A DNA stretch of 64,000 nucleotides from Ruminiclostridium papyrosolvens DSM 2782 (GTDB lineage Bacteria; Bacillota; Clostridia; Acetivibrionales; DSM-1351), in NCBI RefSeq assembly GCF_029318685.1, contig NZ_CP119677.1:2905001-2969000 (forward strand), given 5' to 3'. Positions 1 to 8,340 of the stretch are shown piece by piece (position 1 is the first letter of the stretch; each line of letters begins with the position of its first letter). The notes below the pieces were generated by a model. That model was not told the origin of the DNA and did no database searches. It was given only the letters and a program-made list of their open reading frames with translations. Position numbers and translations under genes: made by a program.

Positions 1-434
1 TCGCCTATGACAGCCATTACACTATAGTCTTCCTTCTTTATATCCCTCGCACGGGCAATACCCAGTGCTGCAGAGATTGACGTACTGCTGTGTCCCGTGT
101 TAAAGCAATCATGTACACTTTCACAGGTTTTTGGAAATCCGGCTAACCCACCGAGTTTTCGTAATGTATCAAAATCTTCCTTTCGGCCTGTCAATACTTT
201 GTGTACATATGTCTGATGTCCTACATCCCAAACAATCTTATCCTTATTTGTATTAAAGTTATTATGAATCGCAAGTGTCAATTCAACAACACCCAGATTG
301 GAGGCTAAATGACCCCCTGTTTTTGAGACTTTATATATAAGAAATGTTCTTATTTCTTCTGCAAGAACCTTTAACTGCTCAATCTCCAATTTTTCTATAT
401 CTTCAGGAGAGTTTATACTATCCAAATACCCCAC
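1..434 (-). CDS. dxs: 1-deoxy-D-xylulose-5-phosphate synthase, N-terminal part
   Basis: DXS condenses pyruvate and glyceraldehyde 3-phosphate in the first step of the MEP isoprenoid pathway, using thiamine diphosphate. Only the first 144 or so codons are present; the gene runs off the left edge. The visible part has the family's N-terminal landmarks: [16 protein letters not shown], then [11 protein letters not shown] and [12 protein letters not shown]. The start is taken as the GTG at 432-434, which has an AAGGAG ribosome site just upstream and gives [16 protein letters not shown]. It lies 31 bp after the oapA-like gene and downstream of ispA, so two isoprenoid genes share this transcript. 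The identity is clear; the exact start is an inference. Confidence 0.95.
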
Positions 435-465: not shown

Positions 466-1101
466 TCATTTTTTTTTATTATTCCATTTCTTTTTCTTTC
501 TAAAATTTAACTTTCCGAAAAGAAATTTTATAACAACCGCTACTTTATATATAATGTAATTACTATTTTGCAATGCTATGGATTTTCCCAGTGCTTTTCC
601 TCCAACAGTGAGAGATGCAACCATTGCAGTAATTGAAAGCCCAAAAATTGAATTTTGCGCTCCCGTACCGCCTCCCGAAAACTTGTATACTATAAAGGCA
701 GCCGCCGTACCGCTTATTACACTGCAAATATCTCCGACAACATCGTTGCAGAAATTTGATACCTTGTCGGCATTTCTTATGAGCATAACTGCCTGTTTAG
801 CACCATAAAGCTTTCTTGACGCCATGGAATGAAATGGTGCTTCATCCGCAGCTGTCGCCGCTGTACCTATTAAGTCAAATAATATACTTATGATTATTAT
901 AACAAAAACAATGAGAAATGAAACAACTGTGGTAGCATTACCTAATGTTTCATTCGAAAAAAAAGACATAAAAATAGAAATGAAAAAAGTTATTACCGTA
1001 ATTAAAAGTGTCCAAACTCTTGTTTCTTTTTTAGAGCTAATTGCGTTAGCCCTGAATTTAACCTTCTTTTCATCGGCTGGATATTTATAATTATCTTCCA
1101 C
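466..1101 (-). CDS. oapA: OLE RNA-associated membrane protein OapA
   Basis: This 211-residue integral membrane protein follows the OLE-like RNA by 27 bp and precedes dxs, the position of OapA (OLE-associated protein A) in other Firmicutes. OapA is known to bind OLE RNA and bring it to the membrane. Hydrophobic segments lie at about residues 30-50, 56-80, 125-145 and 150-170. The stretch around ADEAPFHSMASRKLYGAKQA resembles the DUF21/CorB-like membrane domain. The N-terminus is charged and cytoplasmic-looking, and the C-terminus is strongly basic (RKKKKWNNKKK), suiting an RNA-binding partner. The start is GTG at 1099-1101 with GGAGG at 1107-1111. The assignment rests on synteny, size and topology; no alignment was possible. 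The alternative is a generic DUF21-like protein. Confidence 0.85.
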   Translation of the reverse strand: MEDNYKYPADEKKVKFRANAISSKKETRVWTLLITVITFFISIFMSFFSNETLGNATTVVSFLIVFVIIIISILFDLIGTAATAADEAPFHSMASRKLYGAKQAVMLIRNADKVSNFCNDVVGDICSVISGTAAAFIVYKFSGGGTGAQNSIFGLSITAMVASLTVGGKALGKSIALQNSNYIIYKVAVVIKFLFGKLNFRKKKKWNNKKK

Positions 1102-1127
1102 ACCAATCCTCCAGATTTATTAGAAAA

Positions 1128-1737
1128 ACAGGTGGCAGTTTATTGAGTAAATTTTGCGGCTTAGGTCAGGCAGGATTTCCCTGACATGTACTGGAATGTC
1201 GCCAAACCAGAGGTTTCCCTTTAAACACATCACCGTACGTCTCCGTTTACGGGGCCTGATTACCACTTAGTCCACACTTTAATCCTCAATAAACCACTTT
1301 GTAAGAACAGTCTAGGGGTTTTCCCCAGCAGTCAAAATGATTCCTAGCCTCTTTTGCAAAAAAGGTTTCAAACAGCAATAATGCTTATATATCGGCCAAT
1401 ACATGAAGCATCTGATCCGTTATCCACCGGATTTCACTCAAGGCAGGCTACACTGTTCACAGCCATCATATAGACACCGCATAACAGGTTTAATCCCTTT
1501 TCGTAGTTGAGGTGGCAAGCAAAAGCTTGACTTTTCTTCCACAAGTAAGGGTCTCCACGGAAAAGGGGTCAACGCCCGCATGCCATTGCGGATCGCCCCT
1601 AAGCCTTAACTCCCAGCATCAACCCACCACTGGGCGTAGCAAGCCGACACAAGGAACTTCATCGATGTGCCCTTAAACGGATTTTTAGGCCCGTCTTCAG
1701 AATCATCAGTACTGACTAGAATACTGCGCCACCCTGT
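1128..1737 (-). ncRNA. ole: OLE RNA (ornate large extremophilic RNA)
   Basis: The 740-bp gap between ispA and oapA has no open frame of note but is dense in GC-rich paired segments, unlike the AT-rich spacers elsewhere. On the minus strand the segment opens with ACAGGGTGGCGCAG (1724-1737) and closes with CTGCCACCTGT (1128-1138). These pair into a terminal stem that encloses about 610 nt, the usual length of OLE RNA. OLE lies in the same nusB-xseA-xseB-ispA-ole-oapA-dxs order in Bacillus halodurans and several Clostridia. It is a structured RNA that forms a membrane ribonucleoprotein with OapA and is linked to tolerance of ethanol, cold and magnesium stress. The ends are inferred from the closing stem. 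Confidence 0.9.
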
Positions 1738-1841
1738 TTTTTTGTCAATAGTAATTTTTTAATAACATAAATGCCATTGAGACAACATTATAACATAAAA
1801 ACTTTGATAAACAAAGAGATTATTATTCCCCAAAATTCATC

Positions 1842-2726
1842 TTAGCGGTCCCTTACAACCAGTGATAATGCAAGTTCTTTTAAAAACTGCGCATTATTGC
1901 CGAATGCTTCAAGACAGGAAATACCTTCTTGAGTTACTGTTTCAAGAAGCTTTTTTGACTCTTCAAGTCCATACATGGTTACATAAGTTGATTTATTGCA
2001 TGAAGAATCGTTCCCGGGGTTCTTTCCCATGTTTTCTACGGTTCCTTCTATGTCAAGAATATCATCCTTTATTTGAAAGGCTAACCCTAAATTTGCTGCA
2101 TACCCTGACAGAAGCTCAAATTCCTTTTTATCGGCACCGCATATTACTGCCGCAGCTTCCACCGGCGCTTTTATCAACGCACCTGTTTTTAGTCTGTGCA
2201 TTGTTTTTAGCCTATCACTTTCAATGGTTTTTCCTTCAGATTGAAGATCAATTACCTGACCTCCTACCATTCCCAATGACCCTGCATACTTGGCAACTAT
2301 TCCGGCAGCCCGCATTTTATCAATACTCTTTGATTCAACTGCATCATTAATCATTATCTCATAAGCCATATTCAATAGTCCGTCTCCGGCCAGTATTGCC
2401 ATAGCTTCACCAAACACTTTATGGTTTGTGGGTTTTCCCCTTCTATAATCATCATTATCCATAGCCGGCAAATCATCATGTATAAGTGAGTATGTATGAA
2501 TCATTTCGATTGCACAGCCGAAATTAATTACCTCATCAAAAGGTTTATCTAACATTTCTGCTACAGCGAGTGCCAGTAAAGGCCTCAATCTCTTGCCTCC
2601 GGCTAAAAGGCTGTAGGACATTGCTTTCTTTATATCCAGACAGTATTCGTTTACTTCCGGAATAATATTTTGAAGCCTCTCTTCAATCATATTCACATAT
2701 ATATTGTTTTTTTCCTTAAAATTCAT
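1842..2726 (-). CDS. ispA: farnesyl diphosphate / geranyl diphosphate synthase
   Basis: This class I trans-prenyltransferase adds isopentenyl diphosphate to allylic diphosphates to give C15 (possibly C10 or C20) chains. At 294 residues it has normal length. It carries GGKRLRP (about 43-49), the first aspartate-rich motif DDLPAMD at 84-90, and a second, KDDILD, near 220. The DDxxxxD spacing with two extra residues is typical of bacterial FPP synthases. It is 12 bp downstream of xseB and 105 bp upstream of the OLE RNA, in an operon that also contains dxs. The chain-length specificity cannot be read with certainty. Confidence 0.95.
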   Translation of the reverse strand: MNFKEKNNIYVNMIEERLQNIIPEVNEYCLDIKKAMSYSLLAGGKRLRPLLALAVAEMLDKPFDEVINFGCAIEMIHTYSLIHDDLPAMDNDDYRRGKPTNHKVFGEAMAILAGDGLLNMAYEIMINDAVESKSIDKMRAAGIVAKYAGSLGMVGGQVIDLQSEGKTIESDRLKTMHRLKTGALIKAPVEAAAVICGADKKEFELLSGYAANLGLAFQIKDDILDIEGTVENMGKNPGNDSSCNKSTYVTMYGLEESKKLLETVTQEGISCLEAFGNNAQFLKELALSLVVRDR

Positions 2727-2738
2727 ATTTCCTCCGAA

Positions 2739-2975
2739 TTACAAGTTAAAATCTTTTTCTTCCAAATTACCCTCTTCATTCTGAATCAACATTGTAATTT
2801 TCTTTTCTGCTTCATCCAGCTTCGCCGCACAGTACCTTGAAAGTTCTATCCCCTGCTGAAAGCTGTTGATGGACTCTTCCAGTGTGGCTTCACCCTTTTC
2901 AAGCTTCACAACAATTTGTTCAAGCTCTGCAATAGCTTCTTCGAAGCTCTTTTCAATTTTAACGCTTTTACTCAT
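2739..2975 (-). CDS. xseB: exodeoxyribonuclease VII small subunit
   Basis: This 78-residue helical protein is the small subunit of exonuclease VII, which degrades single-stranded DNA from both ends to oligonucleotides. Several copies coat the long helix of XseA. It shows the family pattern SFEEAIAELEQIVVKLEKGE followed by LEESINSFQQGI. Its ATG overlaps the xseA stop by 8 bp (ATGAGTAA), so the two subunits are translationally coupled. Confidence 0.95.
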   Translation of the reverse strand: MSKSVKIEKSFEEAIAELEQIVVKLEKGEATLEESINSFQQGIELSRYCAAKLDEAEKKITMLIQNEEGNLEEKDFNL

Positions 2976-4182
2976 ATATCTTTCCCTCTCTTACCGATGT
3001 AACGTCACATTCTGCCAATCCGTCATTTATCAATATTTCCAACTTATCTCCGGCATTAACCTGCTTTACACTATTTACAACATGTCCTTGGGAATTTTTT
3101 ACAACACCATAGCCACGTTCCATTATCTTCAAAGGACTCAAAGCATCCAGCTTTCCTGCTAGGATTCCAAACTGTGACTTCTTGTCTTTTATAATAGCTT
3201 GATTTTCCCTTACAAGGTTTTTTACTAGATTGTCTATTGCCTGCCTTTGCTGGTTTACTCTGTCATAGGGCTGTGTAAAAGAAGGTCTTGAATTTATTTT
3301 TTGCAGTTGATTCTGCAATGCAGTCACTTTTTTCACAAGGGAATTTTTCATTCTCATATTGTAGCTTTCCAGTTTATATAAAAGCACCTCAATATCAGGA
3401 ACTGCAAGTTCGGCGGCAGCGGACGGGGTGGGTGCCCGCATATCCGAAACAAAATCACTTATTGTAAAGTCTGTTTCATGTCCAACAGCAGAGATAACGG
3501 GGATATTGGATGCATATATACTTCTGGCAACAATTTCTTCATTGAAGGCCCACAGCTCCTCCAGTGAGCCGCCGCCTCTGGCCACAATTATTACGTCAAC
3601 CTTATTATGCTCATTTAGTCGCTTAATTGCCTCAGATATCTGTCCTGCTGCCTGAGGTCCCTGAACGGCTACAGGATACAAAACCAACTTCATTTTGCTG
3701 TTTCTTCTATAAGTAACATTAATAATATCTCTTATAACGGCACCTGTTGAAGATGTTACAATACCTATACTTCCCGGCAGCAATGGAATACTTTTCTTTT
3801 TTTCAAGGTCAAATAATCCCTCCTGCTGAAGCTTCTCCTTTAATTGTTCAAAGGCAACGTGCAGAGCACCCACTCCATCGGGCTGCATATTACTTGCATA
3901 TAGCTGATACTGCCCGTCCCTTTCAAAAACGGAGATATAGCCGGACACTATCACCTTCATACCATTTTCGGGAGCAAATCTCAGCGCAATGGCCTGTGAC
4001 TTGAACATAACGCATTTTAGAAGGCTGTTTTCGTCCTTAATGGTAAAATACATATGCCCGGTATAATGGTGCTTAAAGTTGGATATTTCACCCCTAATTG
4101 ACACATCCGATAATATTAGGTCCCTTGATACCAACTGCTTTATATAATTATTTATGTCAGAAACCGAATAAACTCTATTCAT
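2968..4182 (-). CDS. xseA: exodeoxyribonuclease VII large subunit
   Basis: This is the 404-residue catalytic subunit of exonuclease VII. It has an N-terminal OB-fold (about 1-100, with VRGEISN-type sequence RGEISNFKHHYTGHMYFTIKD), the central nuclease domain with GIVTSSTGAVIRDI and ARGGGSLEELWAFNEE, and a long helical C-terminal arm (about 270-350). AVGHETDFTISDFVSDMRAPTPSAAAE is also diagnostic in part. It is followed immediately by xseB with an 8-bp overlap. A hairpin with a T run separates it from nusB upstream, so this gene may be served partly by its own promoter. Confidence 0.97.
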   Translation of the reverse strand: MNRVYSVSDINNYIKQLVSRDLILSDVSIRGEISNFKHHYTGHMYFTIKDENSLLKCVMFKSQAIALRFAPENGMKVIVSGYISVFERDGQYQLYASNMQPDGVGALHVAFEQLKEKLQQEGLFDLEKKKSIPLLPGSIGIVTSSTGAVIRDIINVTYRRNSKMKLVLYPVAVQGPQAAGQISEAIKRLNEHNKVDVIIVARGGGSLEELWAFNEEIVARSIYASNIPVISAVGHETDFTISDFVSDMRAPTPSAAAELAVPDIEVLLYKLESYNMRMKNSLVKKVTALQNQLQKINSRPSFTQPYDRVNQQRQAIDNLVKNLVRENQAIIKDKKSQFGILAGKLDALSPLKIMERGYGVVKNSQGHVVNSVKQVNAGDKLEILINDGLAECDVTSVREGKIYE

Positions 4183-4252: not shown

Positions 4253-4690
4253 TTATTCAGAATCAGTTTCACCAGTTATTGTCTCTAAAGGTATATCACT
4301 CTTTGATACCTTGGCCAAAAGACCGTTAACAAACGCTCCTGCATCTTCATTGCTATATTTTTTAGCTAATTCTACAGCCTCATTTACAGAAACACTAAAT
4401 GGTATATCGTCCCTATACAATATCTCGTAAATTCCTATTCTTAAAATTGACAAATCTATTTTAGATAAACGATTTATTTTCCAACCGGTGGCTTTTTTTT
4501 CTATTATACCATCTAAAACCGGCGTTTTATCGAATACCCCATCAACGATTCCTTTAATATATTCCCTATCGTTTTCAGTTAAACTTTCGTCTTCCAGGGC
4601 CATGTTAATTTGTTCGTCTCTGTCAGTTTTCTGTATTTCCAATTGATACAACAGTTTCATCGCAGATTCCCTGGATGCACGGCGTCCCAT
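4253..4690 (-). CDS. nusB: transcription antitermination factor NusB
   Basis: NusB binds boxA RNA with NusE (ribosomal protein S10) to allow antitermination of rRNA operons. The protein is 145 residues, all helical, with the N-terminal signature RRASRESAMKLLYQLE and the C-terminal NEAVELAKKYSNEDAGAFVNGLL typical of the family. The start ATG has an upstream AAGGAGG. It sits 32 bp after the DUF2273 gene and before xseA, the standard Clostridia order. Confidence 0.97.
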   Translation of the reverse strand: MGRRASRESAMKLLYQLEIQKTDRDEQINMALEDESLTENDREYIKGIVDGVFDKTPVLDGIIEKKATGWKINRLSKIDLSILRIGIYEILYRDDIPFSVSVNEAVELAKKYSNEDAGAFVNGLLAKVSKSDIPLETITGETDSE

Positions 4691-4722: not shown

Positions 4723-4953
4723 CTATCTGTATGTACCAGGCGGCAGTATCCTGTCCAGAAGATTCTTAATATAGTCTTTGTCCTGGTACAATTTTTTCCC
4801 GACATAAAATCCAAAAACTACACACAAAACTATAAACAATGCTTTTAACAATCCAAGAATCAATACAATAACTGCAATCGAAAAACCGATTGCGGCCCCC
4901 AGTATTTCACCCTTGTGCTGATTGTAAAACTCGGTTAATACCTGTTTATCCAT
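4723..4953 (-). CDS. DUF2273 family small membrane protein
   Basis: This 76-residue protein has two adjacent hydrophobic segments (about 17-34 and 37-52) joined by a short turn, then a charged tail ending in RILPPGTYR. The pattern matches DUF2273 proteins, which are almost always found beside asp23 and amaP genes. Its start is 17 bp from the amaP stop. Its role is not established; the context suggests part of the membrane-anchored Asp23 alkaline or envelope stress complex. Confidence 0.85.
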   Translation of the reverse strand: MDKQVLTEFYNQHKGEILGAAIGFSIAVIVLILGLLKALFIVLCVVFGFYVGKKLYQDKDYIKNLLDRILPPGTYR

Positions 4954-4970
4954 GGTAACACCTCCAATTG

Positions 4971-5522
4971 CTACTCAACTCTCGCAGATTTGTAACCAGT
5001 GAAAATGCTCTCCACCAAAACTCTGACACTATCTACCTGCACTCCCGTGCAATCTTCAACTGCAGATTTTACTTTCTGCTGCATATCTTCAGACAACAGA
5101 GGAATGTTTATGTCAGGAAGAACAATTGCTTTCACAGTAATACTGACACCTTCGCCTACTTTTGTAACAAATGCCTTGGAATCACGAATCCCGTTGAGCT
5201 TTCTCGATGTAGCCAATGCAATGTTCTCGATTGAGTTTAAAGTAATTCTGATATCGCCGTTTTTATTGTATTTGGTTATAGCTTTTTTATCTCCTTCCGG
5301 CTTAAAACCGGAAAGAAGGAATGTCAAACTCAAACAGAAAAATATTGAAGAAACAATGAACATTATAATGGATGGATTCCGATATCCCAACACATCGTTA
5401 TATAAGTATGTATAAGCCTCCGACAATATGTCAGACTTGATTGTAACAAGCATTGCGAACATGGATGCAATTGTCAGGAAAAATGCATATACAGCTAATA
5501 GTACACGTAAAATTATGTTCAT
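4971..5522 (-). CDS. amaP: alkaline shock response membrane anchor protein AmaP
   Basis: AmaP anchors Asp23 to the membrane. This 183-residue protein has two N-terminal transmembrane segments (about 4-26 and 51-71). A cytoplasmic domain related to Asp23 follows, including SIENIALATSRKLNGI and IPLLSEDMQQKVKSAVEDCTG. It lies between asp23 and the DUF2273 gene. The call rests on topology, the Asp23-like C-terminal half and the gene order. Confidence 0.85.
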   Translation of the reverse strand: MNIILRVLLAVYAFFLTIASMFAMLVTIKSDILSEAYTYLYNDVLGYRNPSIIMFIVSSIFFCLSLTFLLSGFKPEGDKKAITKYNKNGDIRITLNSIENIALATSRKLNGIRDSKAFVTKVGEGVSITVKAIVLPDINIPLLSEDMQQKVKSAVEDCTGVQVDSVRVLVESIFTGYKSARVE

Positions 5523-5617
5523 ATAAACTTCACCTCTATTCTTTTATTATAAGCAAACAATACCCATAAATTCGGTAATTAATTTCATTATATTTCAATT
5601 ATGTATAAAAATCAAAC

Positions 5618-5656
5618 GTATATGAGAATGTTTGGATAATAATCATTCTCATATAC
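5618..5656 (-). terminator. hairpin after asp23
   Basis: A perfect 13-bp inverted repeat (GTATATGAGAATG and its complement) with a 13-nt loop lies about 40 bp beyond the asp23 stop. The T-rich stretch that follows on the minus strand fits an intrinsic terminator or a processing stem between asp23 and amaP. Confidence 0.55.
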
Positions 5657-5695
5657 TTTATTTAATTATTTCCAATAACACAGATATTGATACCC

Positions 5696-6079
5696 TTACT
5701 TGACTTCAGTATCCTTCTTTGCTTCTTTTTCAAAGTTAACTCCCTGAATATGAATGTTAACCTCAACGACATTGAGTCCTGTCATTTCCTGTACCGTATT
5801 TTTTACCTTATCCTGTATGTCCCATGCAACTTCAGGTATTCTTGAACCAAATTCTACTATTATATATAAATCTATAGCTGCTTCTTTTTCTCCGACCTCG
5901 ACTTTTACTCCTTTAGAGAGGTTCTTCCTACCGAGAATCTCAGCTATTCCTCCCGCGATACCTCCGCTCATGCCCGCTACCCCGGGAACATCAGTCGCAG
6001 CAATTCCCGCAATAATGGCAACAACTTCCTCAGATATTTTTACAGAACCATAGTCATCAATTATATTATTTTCTTCCAT
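5696..6079 (-). CDS. asp23: Asp23/Gls24 family envelope stress response protein
   Basis: This 127-residue protein has the Asp23/Gls24 signature: ISEEVVAIIAGIAATDVPGVAGM at the start, GVKVEVGEKEAAIDLYIIVEFG in the middle and the NVVEVNIHIQGV strand near the end. Family members are abundant cytoplasmic proteins that gather at the membrane through AmaP and respond to alkaline or cell-wall stress. It begins the asp23-amaP-DUF2273 set just after the spoIIIA operon and has a clear AGGAGG-like ribosome site (GGAGGTATATT) before the ATG. Confidence 0.93.
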   Translation of the reverse strand: MEENNIIDDYGSVKISEEVVAIIAGIAATDVPGVAGMSGGIAGGIAEILGRKNLSKGVKVEVGEKEAAIDLYIIVEFGSRIPEVAWDIQDKVKNTVQEMTGLNVVEVNIHIQGVNFEKEAKKDTEVK

Positions 6080-6250
6080 AATATACCTCCATTATATCAG
6101 TCAGGCAATATTACCATTTTATCTGGATAACAGCTTGTAAAATTATATCACTTCAATCCTTATTTATCAATCTATACTAGTATTTTAAATATCATTGGTT
6201 TCTAATCATATGGAATAATGTTGCTGCTTGTCCAAAAAACTATTAAAAGC

Positions 6251-6284
6251 AAAAAGGCTATCTTTTTCAAGATAACCCCTTTTT
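6251..6284 (-). terminator. terminator of the spoIIIA operon
   Basis: On the minus strand AAAGGGGTTATCTT and AAGATAGCCTTTTT pair around a short A-rich loop and run into Ts. It lies about 30 bp past the spoIIIAH stop, so it separates the sporulation operon from asp23. Confidence 0.8.
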
Positions 6285-6314
6285 GAGCTGCTTTATTTAT
6301 AAAATTATAAGAAA

Positions 6315-6896
6315 TCAGAACATATTCTTGATTATAATCTTATCAAAGGGAACATTTCCCTGTCTGGCAACAATGTCAAGTATTTTAGCCTGATCAGCTT
6401 TAGATATCGCAGGAGCCTTTACAACAACATCCACACTCCCGTCGTCAGAGAATAATGCGACTACATCATTAAAACCTTTTTCTTTGATAAGAGTTTCAAT
6501 GTTTGCCTCTTTCTGAGAGGTTTCAACTATTTTCATCATTTTTGCATAAGCTTTGGATTTTGCATCCTTGCTAGCCATGTCGTCTCCATAAACACCTTTC
6601 ATTGTTTCAATGTCCTTGTCTCTGGTAACATCCCTATCCATTTTTGCCTGAGCAAAAAAGTTGTTTGCTTCCTTTGATGCGGTAGCTGTTTTCTCTTCAT
6701 TCCCGGCAGTGGCAGTGTTAACATTTCCCTTAGCAGATGCATCCTTATTATCTACATACACTGCATCGCCAAATTGAGCGGAGTCATCTTCGCTGTATTG
6801 TGCGCTTTTGTTGTAGGTGTACTGCAAATAGCCTGCTACTAACAGCATAAGTACAAGGGATAGTACAATTATTTGTTTTCTTTTTAAAAAATTCAT
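6315..6896 (-). CDS. spoIIIAH: stage III sporulation protein AH
   Basis: SpoIIIAH is made in the mother cell. Its extracellular domain binds SpoIIQ from the forespore and is related to the ring-forming YscJ/FliF family. The protein is 193 residues with one N-terminal membrane segment (about 8-26), a low-complexity linker (about 30-75) and a C-terminal ring-building domain (about 85-190) ending in GNVPFDKIIIKNMF. It is the last gene of the complete spoIIIAA-AH operon. Partner SpoIIQ is not in this window. Confidence 0.95.
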   Translation of the reverse strand: MNFLKRKQIIVLSLVLMLLVAGYLQYTYNKSAQYSEDDSAQFGDAVYVDNKDASAKGNVNTATAGNEEKTATASKEANNFFAQAKMDRDVTRDKDIETMKGVYGDDMASKDAKSKAYAKMMKIVETSQKEANIETLIKEKGFNDVVALFSDDGSVDVVVKAPAISKADQAKILDIVARQGNVPFDKIIIKNMF

Positions 6897-7022
6897 TACA
6901 TAGACCCTCCTAACAATCTTTTAGTTTATTGTTTCTCCTTGGCTTTTCACCTAAAGGATTTTTGCTCGTCTCACACATTATGTATATTCATATATATTAA
7001 AGTTTATTTCTATTTTTTAAAA

Positions 7023-7643
7023 TTAGTTTTTATTTCTCTCAAATACCTGTATCTTGTGGGAAGCTACTTCAAAAAGTGCCTCCGTAGCATTTGCCAGACT
7101 ACTTCTGACTTCAGCATCTCCGGCTCCGTCTGCAACTATTACAACTCCTTTTACTTTTGGGAGCATTTCCTTTGTGATGTACGGTTTTTTTACTCCGTCG
7201 CTTTCCTCAAAAATAATATTATTCTCTTTGTCAGACTGTTTAACTGACCGTGTCCCCCCTTCCTTATCTTTCTCCTGTGTGTCACTTGTACTGTTTTTCG
7301 TGTTATAGGCCGGTACAGATTCATTACCGGAATAAAAGGTAACCATAACACTAACCTTACCTGCTCCTTTTATTTGGGACAGTATAGATTCCAGACTTTT
7401 TTCCAGTTTATCTTTTGTTTCACCTTCCTTCTGACTCAATGTTTCCACAGCCTCTGTACCGTTTTTGGGCTGGGGAGTGACCTTCTCACTTTTCTTTGCT
7501 GTTTCTTGAAAAAATACACTGCCTGCAATAAGTAGGATTATTCCTATAATTGCAATTATTACAGTATTCTGAATTACTTTTTTACTCCCGTCGGCAGTTA
7601 TTTTGTTTTTCAGCTCCGTTATAAGCTTACTAAATTTATACAT
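7023..7643 (-). CDS. spoIIIAG: stage III sporulation protein AG
   Basis: SpoIIIAG forms a large ring in the space between mother cell and forespore as part of the feeding-tube channel. This 206-residue protein has a single membrane span (about 27-46), a charged linker and the conserved LEKSLESILSQIKGAGKVSVMVTFYSG strand region. It ends with the KGVVIVADGAGDAEVRSSLANA segment typical of the family. It lies between spoIIIAF and spoIIIAH. Confidence 0.95.
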   Translation of the reverse strand: MYKFSKLITELKNKITADGSKKVIQNTVIIAIIGIILLIAGSVFFQETAKKSEKVTPQPKNGTEAVETLSQKEGETKDKLEKSLESILSQIKGAGKVSVMVTFYSGNESVPAYNTKNSTSDTQEKDKEGGTRSVKQSDKENNIIFEESDGVKKPYITKEMLPKVKGVVIVADGAGDAEVRSSLANATEALFEVASHKIQVFERNKN

Positions 7644-7698
7644 TTATATTCCCTCCTACATCATTTATTCCGAAAATATATTGGTTATCCAAAAATAA

Positions 7699-8340
7699 TT
7701 AATTTACTGTAACAATAATACTGTCTTTTTTTATTTCAAAGGATTTATTTATGGTCTGTTTTAATTGTTCTGTTATTTTTTTACTCTCATCATCCGTAAC
7801 TGCTTCCTGTTTTTTGTTGTTTTTTCCCTTTACAAAGGGTAATGAAATATCAATTTTTTTAACAGGCATTACGGAATTAATTTTTACACTGTCCGACTGC
7901 TTTTTTCCCCGTTTTATCTGAAGATTTACTCTGGTTATTTCCCCGAATTTATTTGAAGAGTAGTCTTCATTGATTTCAATGTCAGCTTTTGCCTGAGAAA
8001 CTCCATTAACCTTTAGAGCTTGCTCCTGTATACTGTTAATAACTTTGTCCTTGTAAACCTGGGATACCTGCTTCATCTGCTTGTCCTTTAACAGTTTGCT
8101 ACTGGCTTCGAGCTCATTTTTATCAAGGTACATGCTATCTGATAACACATTCTGTCCAATATCAAAATTCTTATTTTTAAGAGTTAAAAAAGGGTTTATA
8201 ACAGCAATCAGCAAAATAAATCCTGCTATAAGACTTATTATTTTCTTTATTTTTCCTGAAGGCATTATTATTTCAAATAAAACCAGAATGATTGTGATTG
8301 TTACAATATTGATAATCCAGCTTCTTAAAAATTCAAGCAT
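7699..8340 (-). CDS. spoIIIAF: stage III sporulation protein AF
   Basis: This 213-residue membrane protein has two N-terminal hydrophobic segments (about 10-28 and 33-52) and a soluble C-terminal domain. It starts LEFLRSWIINIVTITIILVL, a recognisable SpoIIIAF beginning. It is a component of the SpoIIIA channel needed for sigma G activity in the engulfed forespore. It is 14 bp downstream of spoIIIAE. Confidence 0.93.
   Translation of the reverse strand: MLEFLRSWIINIVTITIILVLFEIIMPSGKIKKIISLIAGFILLIAVINPFLTLKNKNFDIGQNVLSDSMYLDKNELEASSKLLKDKQMKQVSQVYKDKVINSIQEQALKVNGVSQAKADIEINEDYSSNKFGEITRVNLQIKRGKKQSDSVKINSVMPVKKIDISLPFVKGKNNKKQEAVTDDESKKITEQLKQTINKSFEIKKDSIIVTVN

Follow-up and report, generated by a model that had tools for sequence, protein, structure and literature searches.

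The window analysed here, 64,000 nucleotides of the genome of Ruminiclostridium papyrosolvens DSM 2782, carries on its reverse strand the gene for an OLE RNA (ole), followed by that of a small membrane protein with a basic tail (oapA). The features of the region are collected in Table 1. Profile matches confirm the gene order nusB-xseA-xseB-ispA-ole-oapA-dxs that had been read from the sequence. Upstream of nusB, at 4723-8340, there are two Asp23-type proteins, together with spoIIIAG and spoIIIAF matches just under the curated cut-offs; such frames are in line with the stress and sporulation genes reported near ole.

Table 1. Features of the ole-oapA region, in window coordinates. Counts out of 52 refer to the aligned OLE sequences.
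Feature	Positions	Strand	Evidence or remark
dxs, 5′ part, downstream gene	1-434	(-)	623-aa frame; TIGR00204, 810 bits
oapA, 211 aa, basic C-terminal tail, DVVGD at residues 120-124	466-1101	(-)	Open frame, relatives, motif
ole, full-length-class OLE RNA	1116-1748	(-)	RF01071; 633 nt matched
End helix, 3′ strand of tested part	1131-1136	(-)	Covariation
Second GNRA tetraloop GCGA, P12.2/P13 region	1199-1202	(-)	GNRA in 50/52; probable assignment
GNRA tetraloop GAGA, P12.2/P13 region	1240-1243	(-)	GNRA in 52/52; probable OapB area
P9 loop, self-complementary GGCC	1394-1397	(-)	Sequence
J6/7 strand CCGTGGAGAC	1551-1560	(-)	Identical in 24/52; core GGAG in 52/52
P6.1 loop AATGGCA	1581-1587	(-)	Invariant except T (6/7 positions, 52 sequences); probable loop
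P5.1 loop region ACGCCCAGT	1629-1637	(-)	Nine of nine positions invariant, 52 sequences; probable loop
J4a/5 kink-turn strand ACATCGATGAAG	1657-1668	(-)	Identical in 30/52; one or two base changes in 22/52
A-rich loop L4	1682-1689	(-)	CCTAAAAA or GCTAAAAA in 52/52
End helix, 5′ strand of tested part	1728-1733	(-)	Covariation; probably P1/P2 of the published model
Putative extended -10-like promoter element TGTTATAAT, upstream of ole	1787-1795	(-)	Conservation in genus
ispA (farnesyl diphosphate synthase), upstream gene	1842-2726	(-)	NF045485, 355 bits
xseB (exodeoxyribonuclease VII subunit)	2739-2975	(-)	TIGR01280 match
xseA (exodeoxyribonuclease VII subunit)	2968-4182	(-)	TIGR00237 match
nusB	4253-4690	(-)	TIGR01951, 139 bits

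The 64-kb window was searched with cmscan using 4,227 Rfam models, and a single match lay above its gathering score. This was RF01071, the OLE RNA, running from 1748 to 1116 with a score of 546.7 bits (gathering score 50), E = 1.5e-157 and the complete model covered (positions 1-616 of 616). The identification of the RNA as OLE is certain. The original prediction had taken the gap between ispA and the membrane protein gene to be an OLE RNA, which the search upholds, and had placed its end at 1737, which it does not: the model match reaches 1748, 11 bases further, outside the paired part. No other OLE was detected in the one-contig genome of 5,027,861 bases. Bases are present on both sides of 158 model pairs in the window RNA; 141 of these are canonical, and 13 of the 17 that are not lie within the 5′ two-thirds.

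The P7, P8, P9 and P13 regions (helix names as assigned in our analysis) are all present, placing the RNA in the full-length class of RF01071 (Fernando and Breaker, 2024) and not in variants 1 or 2, an assignment based on complete model coverage and on alignment helices 6, 7, 9-11 and 19-21. Model length, structure, end helix and placement between ispA and oapA-dxs are shared with that class, as are the dimer-loop and kink-turn sequences and two GNRA hairpins. The window RNA differs from the RF01071 model in having additional bases in the P7 loop and a P6 3′ strand without the literal CCUCC, and these differences leave its kind unchanged. The OLE RNA of Clostridium acetobutylicum, for which a cryo-EM structure of the dimer is reported (PMC12286853), is also clostridial, and the loops reported to make its dimer contacts are conserved in the window; it is 577 nt long, compared with the 633 nt matched here, and the two RNAs are likened by their loops, not base by base.

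We have studied the pairing of the RNA in an alignment of 52 full-length OLE sequences, taken from the host genus and from other hosts found via OapA relatives. Because it was reached through relatives of the window OapA, this set leans clostridial and is no fair sample of all OLE. From the 57 full-model OLE sequences we left out the defective-looking L002 and the low-scoring L014, L028, L045 and L046; the 5′-truncated L011, L024, L026 and L040, the repeat copies L065 and L068-L072, and those OLE loci that were collected afterwards also stand outside the alignment. The pairs tested were those of the Rfam structure and six pairs of the end helix; the latter were also tested separately because the Rfam structure line has the ends of ole unpaired.

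The alignment supports the structure. The fraction of paired cells is 88.6%, compared with a shuffled mean of 74.8%, and two-sided changes occur in 107 of the 164 pairs. On each of five measures, none of 500 shuffles matched the observed value. In slid controls, where the partners were moved by one to three columns, pairing fell to 40-45%. The weaker helices in the alignment are 4 (78.2%), 9 (72.2%), 10 (76.7%), 11 (70.9%) and the two-pair helix 14 (50.0%).

The complementary ends that had been proposed to close the gap are present, with ACAGGGTGGCGCAG at 1737-1724 opposite CTGCCACCTGT at 1138-1128. In the tested part of this end helix five of the six pairs are changed on both sides, and 93.3% of the cells are paired in the 52 sequences. 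The covariation score is 0.456 compared with 0.209 for the shuffled alignments; no shuffle out of 500 scored as high, and the slid controls gave at most 0.218. The count of two-sided pairs was equalled by a single shuffle in 500. The number of further pair types was unremarkable (63 of 500 shuffles), and the slid control at -3 still paired 79.2% of cells, with a covariation score of just 0.218.

Is the adjoining frame a genuine OapA? It begins with GTG, has GGAGG six bases ahead of it, and starts 14 bases from the end of the RNA match. The encoded protein is 37-97% identical to 21 OapA relatives; relatives from 59 other loci were compared in all. A DxxxD motif is found in all 60 proteins (that of the window and those of the 59 loci, with frames picked by script). 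This probably corresponds to D100 and D104, the residues changed in the 'PM1' protein of H. halodurans (PMC9723947). In being a small membrane protein that adjoins ole, with DxxxD and a weak likeness to CNNM, the window protein resembles OapA of H. halodurans. No PDB match was obtained by sequence at E up to 1. The match to the CNNM profile (PF01595) scores 24.9 bits with E = 1.8e-5, under the Pfam cut-off of 28.4. This agrees with PMC11332333, where OapA ranks directly behind MpfA among matches to the CNNM model; the MpfA family is proposed in the same paper to do work similar to that of OapA. The MpfA/CorC proteins, with the architecture CNNM-CBS-CorC_HlyC, are distant relatives of OapA; the profile search detected neither CBS nor CorC_HlyC domains in the window protein, so the frame at 466-1101 lacks the combination of these with an above-threshold CNNM domain.

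OLE lies directly upstream of oapA in 56 of the 59 loci of OapA relatives (20/20, 18/20 and 18/19 in three batches), and this, together with the DxxxD motif and the identity to the relatives, bears out the proposal that the flanking protein is OapA. The exceptions are L036, L051 and L041. The contigs of L036 and L051 begin only 4 and 82 bases before the OapA match, while L041 has 2.9 kb upstream of oapA without OLE. The genomes of L041 and L036 carry OLE on other contigs. It was not found in MAG G015, the genome of L051, where oapA stands at a contig end in a possibly incomplete assembly; this is the one MAG with an OapA for which no OLE was detected. In MAG G011 the two genes are unlinked, with OLE (C19:1553-2146) on a 27-kb contig and oapA (L041) on a separate contig of 68 kb. 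The presence of OLE and OapA agreed in 12 of 12 genomes chosen from the order, seven having both and five neither; these comprised all five genomes without OLE, three of which are 55, 91 and 83% complete, and seven with it.

We conclude that 466-1748 is very probably the ole-oapA locus of R. papyrosolvens DSM 2782, in which a complete OLE RNA with covarying pairs stands beside a genuine OapA. The protein might instead be an ordinary CNNM/DUF21 transporter, and the gap either a decayed OLE or an untranslated region unrelated to it. The weak CNNM match, and a defective-looking OLE in one MAG of the genus (L002), could be taken in that sense; against this, the OapA match lies under the Pfam cut-off, whereas the true CNNM protein of the host reaches 175.9 bits, a BLAST comparison of the latter with OapA gave nothing meaningful (best E = 7.2), the DxxxD motif is present, and the RNA is of full length and covaries. 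A plain DUF21/CNNM protein at 466-1101 and a decayed OLE copy are both rejected on these grounds, the latter by the full-length model score and the pair counts, and we give this explanation practically no chance of being correct. The short distance between the RNA and oapA, with no terminator called between them, and the joint presence or absence of the two genes in the 12 checked genomes, would suit an RNA that is a cis-regulatory leader controlling the translation of oapA and not a free-standing membrane particle. However, the OLE RNA of H. halodurans is reported to be processed, abundant, located at the membrane and required in its own right (PMC9723947), and in MAG G011 oapA has no OLE before it. 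A leader function is thus highly improbable.

A third explanation accepts the OLE particle as present, but as redundant, with an MpfA-like transporter doing most of its work. In addition to OLE, each of the 11 genus genomes has one or more CNNM matches of full strength (two in some, three in MAG G008), and a pair of adjacent CNNM genes occurs in two species without ole and oapA from another genus of the order (g8). On the other hand, the genome comparisons show ole to have diverged less than its neighbours: relative to R. cellobioparum the identity is 87.6% for ole, 77.5% for oapA and 69.0% for ispA-xse. Of 58 genomes from the order, 53 have an OLE, and of the 42 of good quality 40 do, in a count that used stricter filters and a single pass for genomes without a match. 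OLE thus appears to be under selection, and redundancy is in our view unlikely, if less so than the leader. The one full MpfA-like protein of the host (CNNM, two CBS and CorC_HlyC, at genome position 310.9 kb; domain make-up was checked for the host protein only) could nevertheless share the work of the OLE particle. In g8 the nearly complete genomes G033 and G035 are those without OLE and OapA and with the two adjacent full CNNM genes; their sister G034 has both OLE and OapA, and one CNNM gene. The OLE-bearing G036 and G037 also have two full CNNM matches, and no such match was found in three OLE-less genomes of lower completeness, so that gain of MpfA as a general answer to the loss of OLE is not shown in this sample.

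The ole gene may possess its own promoter. The sequence TGNTATAAT occurs in 10 of the 11 genus genomes, where its first base precedes the RNA match by 18-130 bases, and the conserved element at 1787-1795 is the putative promoter of ole. Since its distance from the RNA varies (1749-1795 here; L063-L072), transcription from it would give 5′ leaders that differ in length within the genus and may be trimmed. The pattern for the element was built from the same genus sequences, and its single hit therefore confirms only the position. A generic sigma-70 scan returned 14 sites where 14.8 were expected, an absence of excess, and did not list the conserved element; we have discarded it as evidence, and the claim of a promoter is based on the conservation in 10 of 11 genomes. 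The ole gene of H. halodurans is described as part of a large operon and as having, in addition, a promoter of its own (PMC9723947).

The window RNA has most of the sequences through which OLE is reported to dimerize and to bind its proteins. Loop L4 reads C/G-CTAAAAA in all 52 sequences, and in a cryo-EM model it forms a dimer contact via A-A pairs (PMC12286853). A second report has the P5.1 loop kissing the P6.1 loop across the dimer, and assigns to the GGCC of the P9 loop the role of a kissing-loop dimer contact (PMC12265935). In the window the GGC of the P6.1 loop is complementary to the GCC of the P5.1 loop. The J4a/5 kink turn is the reported site of OapC (PMC9723947), and J6/7 is the partner strand of the kink turn in the cryo-EM model (PMC12286853).

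The position is different for P6. In H. halodurans this helix contains an exact anti-Shine-Dalgarno copy, CCUCCU, described as a mimic bound by bS21 (PMC12054373). The 3′ strand of P6 in the window is CCCCTTTTCC, from which an exact copy is absent. CCTCCT is found in none of the 52 sequences at this strand and CCTCC in four, in a clostridia-leaning sample that does not include H. halodurans and so contains no positive control. The P6 3′ strand and J6/7 (1549-1576, alignment columns 195-222) do not preserve the letters of the anti-Shine-Dalgarno copy. Three G-C pairs beside its position are kept in 52 of 52. In the H. halodurans study, P6 mutants in which the copy was changed yet pairing preserved still bound bS21 (PMC12054373), and the missing copy therefore does not exclude the binding of this protein. 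Given the binding of those mutants and the invariance of the G-C pairs, it is likelier that these pairs in P6, rather than the anti-Shine-Dalgarno sequence, determine bS21 binding.

The original prediction called for a search of the genome for oapB and oapC, and both were found. The OapB gene is a frame of 93 aa (L097:1147-1428) just upstream of infA, whose best PDB match is 7k9b, 'OLE-associated protein B', with E = 2.1e-6. That for OapC encodes an L7Ae/YbxF-type protein of 80 aa (L073:6381-6623), upstream of a frame read as rpsL; its PDB matches include B. subtilis-type YbxF structures. Here map and rpsL, beside OapB and OapC, were named by eye from translations, and infA by PF01176. Another protein of the L7Ae type is encoded at 1,696.7 kb of the host genome. 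A single copy of bS21 is present in each of the 11 genus genomes.

The host is indeed the mesophilic cellulosomal clostridium that had been supposed. R. papyrosolvens DSM2782 is described as mesophilic, anaerobic and cellulolytic, and was cultured at 35 °C (PMC10701907). Its genome gives 71 dockerin matches. Among the relatives returned with a name the nearest is R. papyrosolvens C7, whose ole is 98.9% and whose OapA is 96% or 97% identical in two comparisons. OLE is present in all 11 genomes of the genus, at full strength in ten and in a defective-looking form in one. Clostridium acetobutylicum and C. botulinum are mesophiles. The RNA-only structure of the OLE dimer is that of the former (PMC12286853), a second dimer structure is that of the latter (PMC12265935), and a survey of 2024 counted 2,822 Bacillota genomes with OLE and described variant forms from gut clades (PMC11332333). 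The suggestion that the present copy extends OLE beyond extremophiles therefore fails, as this was already established, even if the OLE papers cited here still describe the hosts as mainly extremophilic and/or anaerobic. A search of literature that lacks some of the OLE papers gave no text linking OLE RNA to papyrosolvens, Ruminiclostridium, cellulolyticum or mesophily. Since the RNA class, the gene arrangement and the occurrence in clostridia of ordinary temperature were known before, the find is sound but adds very little that is new, and the picture of the nature or occurrence of OLE is unchanged by it.

What might the RNA do in this host? In H. halodurans OLE is reported as a processed, very abundant RNA of ~630 nt that co-localises with OapA at the membrane and has several protein partners (PMC9723947), ArgR being among those reported (PMC12265935). 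Cells without OLE are described as failing in the cold, in the presence of alcohol or raised Mg2+, and on poor carbon sources (PMC12054373, PMC9723947, PMC12265935, PMC10898510); the ethanol phenotype goes back to Wallace 2012, as cited in PMC12286853 and PMC9723947, and the ethanol link suggested for the present copy is in that respect not new either. Cells lacking ole-oapA secrete less protein and grow poorly on casein unless Mn2+ is given, the authors being uncertain whether secretion in general is affected (PMC10898510). The R. papyrosolvens genome has the four partners that we looked for (OapA, OapB, OapC and bS21), and by analogy a particle would be expected to form and act there as in H. 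halodurans. The RNA would arise both from its own promoter and through transcription running on from the genes upstream, and would be trimmed to about 600 nt and paired with a second copy. OapA, which is CNNM-like and possibly handles divalent metals, would bind it to the membrane, and OapB, OapC and bS21 would complete the particle. This would be dispensable in good conditions and needed under excess Mg2+, short-chain alcohols, cold and poor carbon, and for protein secretion.

In a cellulosome-building Ruminiclostridium, OLE could conceivably matter chiefly for export of the cellulosome and life on cellulose. We consider this speculative and improbable. If it is true, loss of ole-oapA should lower the secretion of dockerin enzymes and growth on cellulose, and Mn2+ should restore both, just as it restores growth on casein in H. 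halodurans; OLE would then have a clear physiological task in a mesophile. OLE is among the largest structured bacterial RNAs without a known biochemical task, and each well-documented host is therefore useful. R. papyrosolvens is a mesophile that can be cultured; its genome is finished and encodes the four partners, an MpfA-like protein and many dockerin proteins to export, so that secretion and alcohol phenotypes are testable outside H. halodurans.

Two of the MAGs are unusual in themselves. The Clostridia RGIG3863 MAG has two ole-oapA loci (L021:300-934 and L027:2354-2988) whose OLE sequences are identical at 634 of 635 positions, reflecting either a duplication or an assembly artefact. The defective-looking OLE, L002:2408-2956, comes from MAG G008 ('Eubacterium sp. 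L_E1_T20_A_bin.111', genus Ruminiclostridium; 92% complete, 6% contaminated). It scores 356 bits over 549 nt, lacks P7 as well as the 5′ strand of P8, and has unrelated sequence in place of the last ~100 nt, with oapA open. The three CNNM matches of this MAG besides oapA, one of them at a contig end, are the maximum for the genus.
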